A DNA stretch of 29,568 nt from IMG/VR virus record IMGVR_UViG_3300024259_000115, positions 1 to 29,568 of that record. The stretch is one strand, 5' to 3'. The DNA comes from a virus. Below the pieces are notes generated by a model. That model saw only the letters and a list, made by a program, of their open reading frames with translations. It made no database searches and had not been told where the DNA came from. Both the position numbers and the translations under genes were made by a program. This document shows, piece after piece, positions 10,016 to 18,522 of the stretch. How positions within the stretch are numbered: the stretch's first letter is position 1; every line of letters begins with the position of its first letter.

Positions 10016-10333
10016 TTACGCACTTACACCCACCGCCTTCCCCGTCGCATACTCCACAATATGCACCATCTCCGGCCCATAAAAGGGGATGCCAGCCTCC
10101 TGCATTAGATGGCTCACATTCGCCACCGACTGCGCCGTGACTTGGCTCATCTGCTCGGGGATATCCTCCTTGTCTGCGTACATCAGTTGCGCTCCGAAGA
10201 TGATCAAAAGATCATCCAGGCACTCATGCAGCTCTTCGGGCAACTTCTTTCTTATGGCCACGGTCGCATACTCTCCCATCACTTGCAAAAACGGGCGGGT
10301 AAAAACCTTCTCTTTCTTTACATCTGCACTCAT
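10016..10333 (-). CDS. 105-residue protein under control of a three-segment leader RNA
   Basis: A 105-residue soluble protein (MSADVKKEKVFTRPFLQVMG... LPEELHECLDDLLIIFGAQL) that I do not recognise; it looks mostly helical with an acidic central part. The AAGGA Shine-Dalgarno sequence lies 8 nt before the ATG. The SD and start lie within or beside GGAACAGGACA, which is perfectly complementary to an upstream leader segment. It appears to be a single-gene unit: a promoter at 10508-10537 precedes it and a spacer with hairpins follows. Having its own promoter and elaborate leader suggests its dose matters, but the function is unknown. Confidence 0.75.
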   Translation of the reverse strand: MSADVKKEKVFTRPFLQVMGEYATVAIRKKLPEELHECLDDLLIIFGAQLMYADKEDIPEQMSQVTAQSVANVSHLMQEAGIPFYGPEMVHIVEYATGKAVGVSA

Positions 10334-10501
10334 TGTCCTGTTCCTTTTGGTGTTGGATGCAAAAATCCGCTGTAGAGAGCATCGTCAGGAACAGGACAGT
10401 TCTTAGGCGACTCATATTCTACAGCGGATCTTTGTCCACGAATAAATTGTTCAACGGTGCTTAAACGAAACGCGCCGCCTTCTTACTGAACTGTCCTGTT
10501 C
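10334..10501 (-). ncRNA. three-segment regulatory leader RNA, locus 1
   Basis: The 168-nt leader of the 105-residue gene. Segment 1 (10488-10501, at the predicted transcript 5' end) and segment 2 (10389-10402) are perfectly complementary over 14 bp. Segment 2 (10388-10398) is also perfectly complementary over 11 bp to segment 3 (10334-10344), which abuts the ATG and overlaps the SD. ATCCGCTGTAGA/TCTACAGCGGAT (10418-10429 with 10365-10376) is a 12-bp stem followed by TTTTTG that encloses segment 2. A shorter helix joins AGGCGGC (10474-10480) to GTCGCCT (10405-10411). The alternatives are mutually exclusive, as in riboswitches and attenuators. A homologous leader is at 17286-17473. Confidence 0.75.
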
Positions 10502-10507
10502 ACCCCC

Positions 10508-10583
10508 ATCCTAGCATAGCCAGATTCAGCATGTCAAGAGCATTTGGCAAAGTGTTAACATGATGGCTAAGAGAGTTAGCCAT
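10508..10583 (-). promoter_or_regulatory. promoter of leader RNA locus 1 with GGCTAA operator
   Basis: Minus strand: -35 TTGACA (10537-10532), 18-bp spacer, -10 TAGGAT (10513-10508); the start site should fall at about 10501, the first base of leader segment 1. Upstream lies a perfect palindrome ATGGCTAA-GAGAG-TTAGCCAT (10563-10583), plus a GGCTAAC half-site at 10595-10601 and a GTTAACA at 10554-10560 like the one in the late promoter. Confidence 0.7.
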
Positions 10584-10596
10584 TTGGTTGTTTTGG

Positions 10597-10866
10597 CTAA
10601 CCAGATCTATCAACTTCTCTGATCACAAGCACATTCGCTCTTTTAGAATAGCCACAATAGATATGTTCAAAATTGTCTTTTGTGCCATATTTCTTTAGAT
10701 GTACTTCGTCGTATTGCGCGACGTCGTGCCGCAGGAAATCATCAGGAACTGCTATCCTAACAACATTAGGGTTATCGCTAGAAACTTCCATAATCGTAAA
10801 ATCATCAGCCATTCCAAATTCTTTTTGCGCCAAAGAACCAAACTGTATTAAATTATATTTATTCAT
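10597..10866 (-). CDS. hypothetical protein, 89 residues
   Basis: A small protein starting MNKYNLIQFGSLAQKEFGMA, with AAGGTGG before the ATG at 10866 and an 8-nt overlap with the preceding gene. It has a beta-rich centre (DDFTIMEVSSDNPNVVRIAV) and a C-terminal strand ending VLVIREVDRSG. I recognise no family. It is the last gene of the SSB-led early cluster, ending just before the operator region at 10563-10601. Confidence 0.65.
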   Translation of the reverse strand: MNKYNLIQFGSLAQKEFGMADDFTIMEVSSDNPNVVRIAVPDDFLRHDVAQYDEVHLKKYGTKDNFEHIYCGYSKRANVLVIREVDRSG

Positions 10867-12844: not shown

Positions 12845-13132
12845 CTAGCTCACTCGTAAATTCTGCCCCGAGATCGCCACAGCCCCGCGCGGCACCCACG
12901 CCGCCAAAACCAACATCACCCCCTTGATACTGACCCCTTCACTCGCCCCCTTTGGGATCTGCGAAACGAAAGCATATTCAGCTTGCTTGCCCGTCTCAAG
13001 CTCATACGCCACCGCCGCATCGACCACCGCCGCACTCACCCGCTCCCCCAGCGCGAGAGACCATAAATATGCCTCGTATTCATACTCACCAACACGCTCA
13101 CGGTATAGCCCGCGCACGAACGAAATACCCAT
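12845..13132 (-). CDS. hypothetical protein, 95 residues
   Basis: Starts MGISFVRGLYRERVGEYEYE. I take the ATG at 13132 because it overlaps the upstream stop (TGATG) and GGGGGAG precedes it; a longer open frame upstream only reads the palindromic repeat. Its Shine-Dalgarno sequence is thus supplied by the repeat at 13136-13190. The middle is alanine-rich and helical (AAVVDAAVAYELETG), the end beta-rich. Function unknown. Confidence 0.55.
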   Translation of the reverse strand: MGISFVRGLYRERVGEYEYEAYLWSLALGERVSAAVVDAAVAYELETGKQAEYAFVSQIPKGASEGVSIKGVMLVLAAWVPRGAVAISGQNLRVS

Positions 13133-13590
13133 CACTCTCCCCCTAAATCCGCTTTTAGATTTGGGGGGATGCCTTTCAGGGCAGGGGGGCATATTCCCGC
13201 AGGATCCCAATAGATGATCTCAAAATCATCAAGCTCAACCAGAAACCTTTCAGGGTCTCCATAAGTACCACCAAAGAAATCGAAAAAATCAGCAACATTA
13301 GAAAAGCCATCTGCAATAGCCAGATCAATACTTTCTTTGGCCGTTAGCAATACAGGGCCACTATCAAGAATAAAATAGATCTCATATTGATTCGGCCAGA
13401 TCACAACCGGCTGCACCCTTGTACAAGGCGTCTCTGCGATCTTCTCGCAAGCCTTCGTCCGCATCCCTGTATACAGATACAACATATCCCCAACCTTCGT
13501 CGGGTTCTTTCTTCGCCGCCGAATCGTATGCGGCTTTCTTCCACTCAAAATCATTGGAGCAAATTCTTTCTTGAAGTTATATGCTGGCAT
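13132..13590 (-). CDS. ASCH-domain protein
   Basis: A 152-residue protein from the ATG at 13590 (AAGGA seven bases upstream). The start MPAYNFKKEFAPMILSGRKP, HTIRRRRKNP and VGDMLYLYTGMRTKACEKI is the typical phage ASCH signature: a beta-barrel related to PUA with a basic 'K.hTiR' motif, thought to bind RNA or modified nucleotides. The last 16 residues, KGIPPNLKADLGGE and neighbours, are encoded by a palindromic repeat also seen in three other genes, so the native C-terminus has been replaced or extended. The precise role is unknown. Confidence 0.8.
   Translation of the reverse strand: MPAYNFKKEFAPMILSGRKPHTIRRRRKNPTKVGDMLYLYTGMRTKACEKIAETPCTRVQPVVIWPNQYEIYFILDSGPVLLTAKESIDLAIADGFSNVADFFDFFGGTYGDPERFLVELDDFEIIYWDPAGICPPALKGIPPNLKADLGGE
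13136..13190. repeat. in-frame palindromic repeat, copy 2
   Basis: CCCCCTAAATC-N-GATTTGGGGGG, then GCCTTTCAGGGC and AGGGGGGC. It encodes the C-terminus of the ASCH protein (IPPNLKADLGGE) and supplies the RBS of the next gene. Confidence 0.75.
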
Positions 13591-13783
13591 AATCTTTTCC
13601 TTTTTCTTGTTTTTCCTTCGTGCTCTTAGTGACCTTCGTGGTGAAAGCGCTTCACCACCCCCCTGCCCCGCACCTGCGTCCCCCTTAATCACGGTACACG
13701 CTGCGCACGTACGCACCCGATTACGCAGAATTATTAATTGTTGTTAAATATCCATTAGTCATTTTTAGCAACAATCTAAGGGG
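13591..13783. other. gene-free spacer with host-type repeat and palindromes
   Basis: No gene seen. It contains a chromosomal-type spacer repeat (13615-13645), the palindrome GTGGTGAA-AGCGC-TTCACCAC (13638-13658), and a spaced inverted repeat ATTGTTG...CAACAAT near 13736-13777 just after the ParR-like gene. The last could be an operator or weak terminator; there is no T-run. Confidence 0.45.
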
Positions 13784-14021: not shown

Positions 14022-15008
14022 TTATCCTTTCCGCAAAAGCATCTTATATAAACCGCGGGAGATGGCAGAAACAGGATTATCTGGCACATATGCTTTCCCT
14101 CGGAAGTTTCTAACCAGATAATTCTTTAGCAAAACCGCCCCACCCCCAACCACGATCATCTTCTCAAAGCGCTGATGACTTTTGCCCCATCTATCCTCGA
14201 TAAAACCATCCACATCGACTTCCCAAGTTGGCAAAGCGTTTTTCAATTCTTCTTTCAATTGTCCTCTACGCAGCTTCATATCCAGTTTGCCCTTGCTAAA
14301 TCGATTAAGCGGGTCAACCAGCTCTAGCAAACGACGCACCCCAACCGTGGCCCCTCCGGTCAAATTCTCTGTATATTTGCTGTTTTCAACCACCATCGCC
14401 TCGCCCGTATTGAAGCCAATCGAGAGTACACCGGTCTCTTTCAGAAAAACACTTGCTCGATCAGCGATCAAAGCACCGTCCAGATCAACCGCATAGTCAA
14501 ACATCGCGCCCAAGGCTTGTGGAGCAAGATGCACTTTCTCCACATCTAACATATAGATTTCCCCATCTGCATCCCATTCGTGATGCCCGATCATCCACTC
14601 ACGTACCAGCTTCTGATACTCAAGAGCACGATCCCCCTGCATCATCTGCAAAGGCAATCCCACCATCAAAGCCAGCGGCTTATCAAAGAGACCATATTTT
14701 CTCTGATAAGTCGTCATCGCTCCATACCACAACGCCCGCATCTCAGGCGTGCCGGTCAGCCTGTTGAAATCAAGAGACTCAACTGGTCGTCCAAAATCAT
14801 GAGCATTCGCCCCCACATAAAACTCGCCAAATTCTCCCTTCACGACTATCGGGCGCTTGCTGCGCTTCATCCCGCCTACAGAAGCATATATCCGCCCACC
14901 GCGCACCGTAGCCGCCTGCGAAAGGAACTGCAAACCACCATCAGCTCCCCACAACTTATTCGCGCCCATTCCCAAATCTTCACCTAAATAAATCAATTCT
15001 TTATTCAT
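14022..15008 (-). CDS. parM: ParM/StbA-like actin-family segregation ATPase
   Basis: A 328-residue actin-fold protein. Phosphate-1 loop LGEDLGMGANKLWG at 8-21, phosphate-2 segment VLSIGFNTGEAMVV around 192-205, and adenosine motif KMIVVGGGAVLLKNYL near 290-305 are in the expected order for ParM/Alp7/Ta0583-type proteins. GGAG lies six bases before the ATG. Such proteins polymerise to push replicated plasmids apart. With the ParR-like gene downstream and a 33-bp palindrome upstream this forms a complete type II partition cassette, implying that the phage can persist as a plasmid. A phage role in intracellular positioning is an alternative. Confidence 0.82.
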   Translation of the reverse strand: MNKELIYLGEDLGMGANKLWGADGGLQFLSQAATVRGGRIYASVGGMKRSKRPIVVKGEFGEFYVGANAHDFGRPVESLDFNRLTGTPEMRALWYGAMTTYQRKYGLFDKPLALMVGLPLQMMQGDRALEYQKLVREWMIGHHEWDADGEIYMLDVEKVHLAPQALGAMFDYAVDLDGALIADRASVFLKETGVLSIGFNTGEAMVVENSKYTENLTGGATVGVRRLLELVDPLNRFSKGKLDMKLRRGQLKEELKNALPTWEVDVDGFIEDRWGKSHQRFEKMIVVGGGAVLLKNYLVRNFRGKAYVPDNPVSAISRGLYKMLLRKG

Positions 15009-16573: not shown

Positions 16574-16851
16574 GCTGTCCTCCATAGAAGAAATCCAATA
16601 AACGCTTTGAGAATCGAAACGCCAATAAATTGACCCCCAAAAACCCACTGGAAGCCATAGCTATCCATAATCAAATAACCAAGTCCCAGAAACACAACCT
16701 CGATAGCGGAAAACAACATAAACTGTCTCGGCATAGAACCTTTTTCTTTTTTCTTGGGCTTTATTTTTCTAACTTTCTCAACGTATTTTTCACATCGTTT
16801 TCGATATGCGGCAACAGTTTCACCTTTCCTGCGTGAAGCTATAGTATTCAT
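16570..16851 (-). CDS. small basic protein with two membrane segments
   Basis: A 93-residue protein: a very basic N-terminus (MNTIASRRKGETVAAYRKRC, KIKPKKKEKG) and two hydrophobic stretches at about 44-63 (MLFSAIEVVFLGLGYLIMDS) and 72-92 (GGQFIGVSILKAFIGFLLWR). It overlaps the genes on both sides (TGATG upstream, ATGA downstream). Function unknown; it belongs to the membrane operon led by leader RNA locus 2. Confidence 0.6.
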   Translation of the reverse strand: MNTIASRRKGETVAAYRKRCEKYVEKVRKIKPKKKEKGSMPRQFMLFSAIEVVFLGLGYLIMDSYGFQWVFGGQFIGVSILKAFIGFLLWRTA

Positions 16852-17285
16852 CAGGAAACCTCCCGTTCAGGCGACTTGACCCACCCACCCAGCACAGCCA
16901 CATCGTAAACAGTCTCTGCGATCATCTCCCCATTCATCACATTGCACAAACCCCCATTCTCTTCCATTACATCTACCTGATATCGCAAAATCAGATAATA
17001 ATCAAACAACGCCAAAGCGCTCGCTGAGCCTGTCGAAGCGCACCCTCCCCCTAAATCTGCACTTAGATTTGGGGGGATGTCGCCGAATGGCGACAGGGGG
17101 GCAGACAGGGGCGCAGATAGGGGGGCAGACAGGGGCAACGCCAGCGCAGCACGCAGCCGCTTCTCCGTCAAAGCCACGACACTCTTCAGCATCGAAAGCT
17201 CAATCGGTGGGTCCCGCAACTCAAGCATCGCAGATGCCAAAGCAGGGAGTTCTTCCTCTGTATAACTCAAGGGGGATTTATTCAT
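16851..17285 (-). CDS. 144-residue protein carrying repeat insertions, first gene after leader RNA 2
   Basis: Starts MNKSPLSYTEEELPALASAM at 17285, with AGGAG seven bases upstream; a longer in-frame reading (to 17534) would translate the leader RNA and is rejected. The N-terminal 50 residues and the C-terminal 55 (ALFDYYLILRYQVDVMEENG...) look native. Between them are SAPL repeats, the palindromic-repeat peptide PFGDIPPNLSADLGGG, and GCASTGSASALA from a second palindrome (GCTTCGACAGGCTCAGCGAG at about 17018-17038). The middle therefore seems to be a landing site for mobile palindromes. The function of the native parts is unknown. Confidence 0.65.
   Translation of the reverse strand: MNKSPLSYTEEELPALASAMLELRDPPIELSMLKSVVALTEKRLRAALALPLSAPLSAPLSAPLSPFGDIPPNLSADLGGGCASTGSASALALFDYYLILRYQVDVMEENGGLCNVMNGEMIAETVYDVAVLGGWVKSPEREVS
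17045..17102. repeat. in-frame palindromic repeat, copy 3
   Basis: CCCCCTAAATC-N-GATTTGGGGGG, then the hairpin TGTCGCC-GAAT-GGCGACA and GGGGGGC. It encodes PFGDIPPNLSADLGGG inside the 144-residue gene, and its end has expanded into tandem repeats. Confidence 0.78.
17105..17145 (-). repeat. short tandem repeat encoding LSAP units
   Basis: Directly beside a palindromic repeat, GGGGCAGACA/GGGGCGCAGATA-type 12-bp units are repeated about three to four times, encoding LSAPLSAPLSAPLS. This looks like slippage expansion of the end of the palindromic element (its own end is AGGGGGGCAGACA). Confidence 0.6.
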
Positions 17286-17473
17286 TCCAGTTCTCCTATT
17301 CAATTGTGTTAAAGCAAAGTCCCGCAACAGACCGATATTACCGGGAGAACTGGAATTCTTGCGGCGACACGGTTGATTCTGCTGCGGGACTTTACCCACG
17401 ATATTCAATTGTAAACCACGAGTGCTGTTAAACACAACATGTCGCCTTCGTGGGGTGAAGAATTCCAGTTCTT
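17286..17473 (-). ncRNA. three-segment regulatory leader RNA, locus 2
   Basis: A 188-nt leader with the same plan as locus 1. Segment 1 (17458-17472) and segment 2 (17346-17360) are complementary over 15 bp. Segment 2 (17344-17356) and segment 3 (17284-17296, containing GGAG and reaching the ATG) are complementary over 13 bp. AAAGTCCCGCA/TGCGGGACTTT (17383-17393 with 17316-17326) encloses segment 2. GGCGACA (17440-17446) pairs with TGTCGCC (17363-17369). Blocks shared with locus 1 in the same order are AAGGCG, GTTTAA..GCAC, ACAATT..AT.TCGTGG, AAAG..CCGC and GTCGCC..AAGAA. Segment sequences differ but pairing is kept, which supports a real RNA fold. Confidence 0.78.
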
Positions 17474-17480
17474 GAGATTC

Positions 17481-17509
17481 ATTATACATCGTCATCGCCT
17501 TTTTTGCAA
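17481..17509 (-). promoter_or_regulatory. sigma70 promoter of leader RNA locus 2 and membrane/par operon
   Basis: Minus strand: -35 TTGCAA (17509-17504), 17-bp spacer, -10 TATAAT (17486-17481). The start site should fall near 17474-17473, immediately before leader segment 1. The promoter overlaps the 3' end of the preceding gene. Downstream genes run without clear terminators through the membrane operon to the ParM/ParR pair. Confidence 0.75.
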
Positions 17510-18157: not shown

Positions 18158-18224
18158 AAGTTCTCCATTTCGTTTTATATTGCCAAAAGTAGACAATTAG
18201 ACAAGCAATTTCTGGTCAAAGTGG

Positions 18225-18522
18225 TCAATTGTGCACATAGGGATTTTCTCTATGTGCACAATTGATAAAGCGTAAAAAAGAAAATCCGCTAAGCACCCGT
18301 ATGTGCACTATTCACCACTTTATGTATATATCGTCACTTATAAAAGTATGTTTATAAGAATTATTTGATAAAAAAAGCGCAAAAGTGACGATACAGGGCA
18401 AAGTGGTGAATAGTGACGATTTTTTAGCCCTTTTCGGGTGGGTAAAAATAAAATATTCGTATATATTTTTTTTAATCCCTATAGGGGGGTATAGTGCGTC
18501 ACTATCACCACTATCGCCACTT
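18225..18522. other. putative replication origin: palindromes and iterons
   Basis: A gene-free, AT-rich stretch just after the primase-helicase gene. It has a perfect 16-bp inverted repeat TCAATTGTGCACATAG (18225-18240 with 18250-18265). A second nested inverted repeat has arms CACTATTCACCACTTT (18306-18321 with 18401-18416) and ATCGTCACTT (18330-18339 with 18384-18393), and its centre is nearly pure A/T. Further related copies are AGTGACGAT (18413-18421) and GTCACTATCACCACTATCGC (from 18498). Clustered iterons, an AT-rich centre and location beside the replication gene fit an origin bound by the phage initiator. Confidence 0.65.

Follow-up and report, generated by a model that had tools for sequence, protein, structure and literature searches.

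Paired leaders with private pairing keys before small phage genes: a possible family of translational RNA switches

Two leaders in a 29.6-kb viral record

The stretch of viral DNA analysed here (29,568 nt; hereafter the window) carries two leaders on its minus strand, each in front of a small orphan gene. Leader 2 (17472-17283) precedes a 144-aa orphan (16851-17285, minus strand), followed on the same strand by 93-aa, 241-aa and 230-aa proteins without matches and by an actin-like partition protein (14022-15008). A preliminary description of this DNA had placed a "membrane/par operon" here; the partition protein is indeed present, but the first gene is the 144-aa orphan. Leader 1 (10501-10331) precedes a 105-aa orphan (10016-10333, minus strand).

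The two leaders are homologous, as had been proposed, with 162 query positions aligned by nhmmer (E = 2.2e-5) and the linker blocks collinear. Their shared layout, read 5' to 3', consists of a sigma-70-type promoter, a 9-11-nt element (X) at the predicted +1, a core containing the helices P2 and P3, the complement of X (anti-X), and X once more over the Shine-Dalgarno sequence (SD) and ATG.

The leader 2 promoter, TTGCAA-17-TATAAT (17481-17509, minus strand like all features below), is of the sigma-70 type with 10 of 12 consensus matches, and segment 1 begins 8 nt past its -10 box, near the start expected from the preliminary description. Segment 1 is X (AGAACTGGAAT, 17462-17472), the predicted 5' end of the transcript; X plus the following 4 nt pairs with segment 2 as the 15-bp helix P1 (17458-17472 with 17346-17360, 100% complementary; the 15-nt segment 1 reads AGAACTGGAATTCTT). 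Downstream lie the P2 5' arm AGGCGAC (17441-17447), the P3 5' arm AAAGTCCCGCAGCAGA (17378-17393), the P2 3' arm GTCGCC (17363-17368) and segment 2, or anti-X (ATTCCAGTTCT, 17346-17356), which can alternatively form a small hairpin inside the P3 loop and is followed by CCCGG and the P3 3' arm TCTGTTGCGGGACTTT (17316-17331). The segment 3 region (17283-17297) holds the SD AGGAG, X (AGAACTGGAAT, 17294-17284) and the ATG (17285-17283), and segment 2 is 100% complementary to it over 13 nt spanning SD and ATG (17344-17356 with 17284-17296). Both pairings thus have the lengths first given for them, and their reading as mutually exclusive states of a homologous, structured switch RNA is supported. The enclosing stem flanking segment 2 is also present, but at 16 nt and 94% complementarity in the repeat search rather than the 11 bp originally described.

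Leader 1 has counterparts of the 1:2 pairing, the 2:3 pairing and the enclosing stem measuring 14, 12 and 17 nt. Its promoter is TTGACA-18-TAGGAT (10508-10537), followed by segment 1 (X, GAACAGGACA, 10492-10501), the P2 5' arm AGGCGGC (10474-10480), the P3 5' arm (10418-10434), the P2 3' arm GTCGCCT (10405-10411), segment 2 (anti-X, TGTCCTGTTC, 10389-10398), the P3 3' arm (10360-10376) and segment 3, comprising X and the ATG (GAACAGGACAATG, 10331-10343), with AAAAG just before it (SD AAGGA). The AGGCGRC/GTCGCC helix, in which an A-U pair had been noticed to become G-U, is present, and with different sequences the six further leaders described below have it too.

Leader 2 is unusually stable (z = -4.7) and leader 1 less so (z = -2.6), as scored with a folding program that cannot represent pseudoknots. 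Neither an internal promoter or conserved terminator able to free an antisense RNA nor a terminator-like site on the transcribed strand was seen within the two window leaders. Leader 2 holds one short reading frame, considered as a leader peptide, a counterpart of which was not noticed by eye in the other leaders.

Two repeat regions were observed elsewhere in the window. In the gap separating the leader 1 promoter from the gene upstream, 10560-10606 contains the inverted repeat GTTAGCCA-11-TGGCTAAC and an extra TTAGCCA; this may be an operator or a gene-end hairpin, and a terminator-like site was called on the plus strand at 10562-10584. Past the 3' end of the primase gene, interleaved inverted repeats cluster at 18218-18415, including a 19-nt TCAATTGTGCACATAG palindrome, 25-nt and 16-nt AAAGTGGT repeats and an 11-nt TATCGTCACTT repeat, and could represent a replication origin or an operator cluster.

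Further leaders and their covarying helices

The window terminase and its counterpart in virus Rctr41k share 63-65% identity, and an alignment of both led to 80 related loci. These were scanned for the leader architecture, defined as a k-mer X, its reverse complement and X again beside a start codon, together with a P3 stem. New leaders were found in L052 (two), L063 and L072; the extended records of L063 and L072 yielded one second leader each, and the G036 record carries the same two leaders as L052. The total is eight leaders in four phages, exactly two per phage in the sequence searched. Their X elements are GAACAGGACA and AGAACTGGAAT in the window, GAGCTCACGA and GAGCCTCTAA in L052, GGTCTGGCAA and GGTCGACAA in L063, and GAGCAAGGCA and GAGACAGCA in L072. 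The preliminary description would have been undermined by a lack of significant alignment between its two leaders and of further examples in related genomes; the alignment is significant, and six more copies occur in related phages.

A profile built from the eight leaders regained every one with an E-value no higher than 2e-27 and found no ninth in 2.4 Mb of sequence, and 240 dinucleotide shuffles of four phage sequences gave 0 scanner hits at the stem score of the real leaders. Blastn of the leaders against GenBank phages returned no match, the primase used as bait did not find relatives, and neither the small ORF nor the terminase matched the 400 genomes examined from the phylum of one Chloroflexi MAG. 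The leader-bearing phages look temperate.

Several candidates were inspected and rejected. A core-motif pattern matched 19 stretches in viral_contigs, 0 of which proved to be leaders, and refined patterns returned only the known leaders, near-identical copies and chance matches. In genome_contigs the refined patterns gave 71 matches, all without a leader-like X triple. L162 reached a profile E of 0.047 but has no repeats of the X/anti-X/X kind.

The anatomy is closely kept across the set. X starts 6-8 nt past the -10 hexamer in 8/8 leaders. After it come the P2 5' arm and a variable region, which in most leaders terminates with GTGG. The P3 5' arm and then the P2 3' arm precede anti-X; CCCGG usually stands between anti-X and the P3 3' arm, and the SD and X with the ATG close the leader. 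P3 crosses both P1 (X:anti-X) and P2; these helices would either form a joint pseudoknot or represent alternative states. Segment 1 can form a small hairpin in seven of the eight leaders and segment 2 in all eight, the hairpin loops being mutually complementary.

In a structural alignment of the eight leaders (A5), which is biased towards the helices because its blocks were hand-cut around them, 25 of 31 pairs in P1, P2 and P3 are altered on both sides and 98.4% of cells are paired. None of 500 shuffles reached the observed pairing, and slid controls were 40-51% paired. The helix between segments 2 and 3, which covers the ribosome binding site (RBS), has 8 of 9 pairs doubly changed and is 100% paired across the eight leaders, while several P3 pairs are invariant. 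G-U pairs are absent from the X helices (0/144 cells) and occur in P2 and P3 (11/173; Fisher p = 0.0012).

Three perfectly identical copies of X without wobble could also arise at the DNA level, where copying by template switching at inverted repeats, or insertion with target duplication, would keep X identical with no role for RNA. The cassettes do look mobile, as both of those in L052 lie antisense amid structural genes. Such copying fails to explain why segment 3 in every case reaches from the SD to the ATG, why segment 1 is always found at +1, or why the covariation of P2 and P3 includes G-U pairs of the RNA type, and we regard it as very improbable.

The promoter regions show two further features. 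Palindromes of the form GAACN4GTTC lie just upstream of the -35 element in both L052 leaders (L205:7470-7483 and 14653-14666) and in L072a (L202:6782-6795), within a GTTCTATTGA block common to these three leaders and also present in L072b; the G036 record has no occurrences besides those of its leaders. Gram-positive LexA/DinR boxes have this form, and SOS control of the L052 leaders and L072a is possible. Both L063-phage leader promoters (L199, L200) read TTGACA-N8-TAYAAT, with TTGACA only 8 nt above the -10 box. This is too near for a normal -35 element, and the motif may be an operator accompanying extended -10 promoters.

Private keys and a proposed switch

Unrelated genes do lie downstream of the leader copies, as had been reported, and from this a class answering to a shared signal, such as a riboswitch or ribozyme, had been put forward as the leading idea. 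That idea is not borne out by the switching segments, which are private to each copy, change in concert and lack wobble. Sequence-specific RNA-RNA recognition would be expected to produce these properties; a common ligand predicts none of them. Within the searched sequence of its own phage, X has no second exact copy outside the leader. Pairing of anti-X with the RBS of its own leader yields -19.8 to -23.2 kcal/mol, against -8.6 to -14.9 kcal/mol when the RBS belongs to the other leader of that phage, and the sister keys of L063 and L052 (two of the four within-phage pairs) still cross-pair at -12 to -15 kcal/mol. The two leaders of L052 (a and b) have entirely different 5-nt key cores at all three places, with the promoter nearly the same and the scaffold mostly kept. 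Judging from sequence comparison, this concerted triple change without wobble intermediates suggests that selection has favoured RNA-RNA recognition that is exact and distinct, and the privacy of the keys suggests that anti-X may also act in trans as a self-specific antisense.

The folded leader can probably open or shut its own gene by means of a private key. For the cis part, the alternative pairing that includes SD and ATG, covariation argues strongly; we infer the action in trans, the RNA processing and which way the switch works. The chances appear evenly balanced that each leader is a translational switch of this kind, in which two copies of X, one at the 5' end and one at the RBS, compete for anti-X and the gene is silenced by its own leader in cis or in trans. 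As the full-length transcript emerges, its 5' X would take anti-X first, forming P1 and leaving the RBS open. P1 (-22 to -28 kcal/mol) at least matches the stability of the RBS helix in most leaders and is able to form first, which should allow translation of a newly made full-length transcript; the same stability means that silencing in cis requires a factor that breaks P1. Once free, or once another transcript or a processed leader fragment with the same key provides it in trans, anti-X would pair with the RBS X and translation would stop. The small gene would fire upon first transcription and subsequently silence itself and identical incoming copies, in an immunity-like manner, and divergence of the keys would allow the two cassettes of one phage, and different phages, to avoid cross-silencing.

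The presence of X at the predicted +1 in 8/8 leaders would not be demanded by pairing in trans alone. It is compatible with a timer acting only in cis, as P1 would pair the extreme 5' end of the transcript. Here the intact primary transcript, with anti-X locked in P1, would be translated until trimming of the 5' end by a pyrophosphohydrolase or RNase freed anti-X and closed the RBS, giving a pulse of protein with no action in trans. We consider this rather unlikely, given that it leaves unexplained both the concerted divergence of the three-site key between sister copies and the absence of wobble.

The core of P2, P3, GTGG and CCCGG is over-elaborate for a plain antisense, and a protein or ligand could have a part in it. 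Some factor of the phage or host, by binding the P2/P3 pseudoknot core, could stabilise either P1 or the RBS helix, with X serving merely as the expression platform of a sensing leader. This would fit the retention of the core across diverged phages, with its invariant P3 pairs and GTGG and CCCGG blocks, and the several unrelated small genes behind the leader. An expression platform, however, needs neither exact three-way identity nor private, fast-changing keys, and no curated Rfam family, whether metabolite riboswitch, ribosomal leader or other, matched the leaders scanned (a set without L072b). As the principal explanation, sensing is improbable.

Returning to the private-key switch, the leaders may constitute a new family of phage RNAs, with the RBS of a gene duplicated at the extreme 5' end of its mRNA and one internal antisense, held by a pseudoknot, controlling both copies; this proposal is tentative and falls somewhat short of even. 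If it is true, each accessory gene would be given a private, evolvable RNA key, amounting to an immunity system for small genes, and the leader would mark fast-evolving accessory genes that possibly act on the host or its defences.

Known antisense leaders and the genes behind the leaders

To our knowledge, few phages have been described with self-specific antisense leaders, the classic cases being C4 of phages P1 and P7 and CI of P4. The c4-icd region of phage P1 has the same order as the leaders: a promoter, the a1/b1 targets, the C4 antisense, a2/b2 at the RBS, and the 73-aa icd. A triple search of phage P1 found TTGACAG and GTTAGTG each as target, complement and target, and the leaders likewise present target, antisense and target before a small ORF, with the downstream target at the RBS. 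The keys of C4, which controls icd-ant, differ between heteroimmune phages much as the private keys do. C4 is processed from its own leader by RNase P, with its b' loop occluding the RBS and its a' loop determining specificity (PMC5320573). Whereas C4 is a three-hairpin 77-nt RNA, cut by RNase P, with two separate 7-8-nt targets, the leaders have a single uninterrupted key of 9-11 nt at +1, with a predicted pseudoknot of P1, P2 and P3 as their core, and occur as two copies per phage. The Rfam models C4 (RF01695) and c4-a1b1 (RF03163) both match phage P1 but matched none of the leaders scanned (L072b not included) even at E up to 10, and a profile of the five related leader ORFs gave no alignment with Icd, and hence no icd/ant relative. 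As the models miss the leaders and the ORF family does not align with Icd, we describe the leaders as C4-like in their working and do not claim C4 identity; by analogy, they would appear to follow the same logic with an unrelated RNA.

The CI immunity of P4 (seqA, seqB, seqC) similarly has two target copies flanking an internal complementary antisense in one leader, and the triple search recovered TTCACAGG, its complement and TTCACAGG again. CI RNA pairs with seqA and seqC, one on each side, and acts by premature transcription termination (PMC4825925), whereas the downstream copy in the leaders covers SD and ATG and points to translation. IsrK of Gifsy-1 is also a prophage leader whose alternative structures hide or open the RBS of a small ORF, in cis and in trans (PMC4825925); compared by description, IsrK has its own terminator and activates, and the available part of that source describes no X/anti-X/X triple. 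If an unrelated RNA shares the target-antisense-target logic, such control arose more than once. The two differently keyed cassettes of each phage make orthogonality directly measurable, and a key swap would be a simple test.

The leaders stand before single small ORFs of 73-144 aa and serve as a signpost to small orphan phage genes with their own promoters. Five of the eight ORFs form one family, to which the two window genes show no similarity, and blastp found no link between the L072b gene and the other leader genes. Matches of the leader ORFs in PHROGs and PADLOC were sub-threshold, with none confident, and Pfam likewise gave no confident match for the two window genes and four of the five family members. 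A structure predicted for the small ORF (pLDDT 61) was inadequate for a fold search. A relative of the leader 1 protein, with 37% identity, lies at the extreme end of L024, where any leader would be lost beyond the end. In the L063a and L072b cassettes the gene is followed by terminator-like hairpins, and the leader-gene cassettes, which often stand alone, look like accessory morons.

The 144-aa ORF itself contains short tandem repeats (ggggcagacagg) and a stretch read as DIPPNLSADLGG (window 17022-17130). The ORF at 13132-13716 finishes with a similar stretch, GIPPNLKADLGG (window 13132-13240), and the two are possibly copies of a small repeated insertion that lengthened the 144-aa gene.
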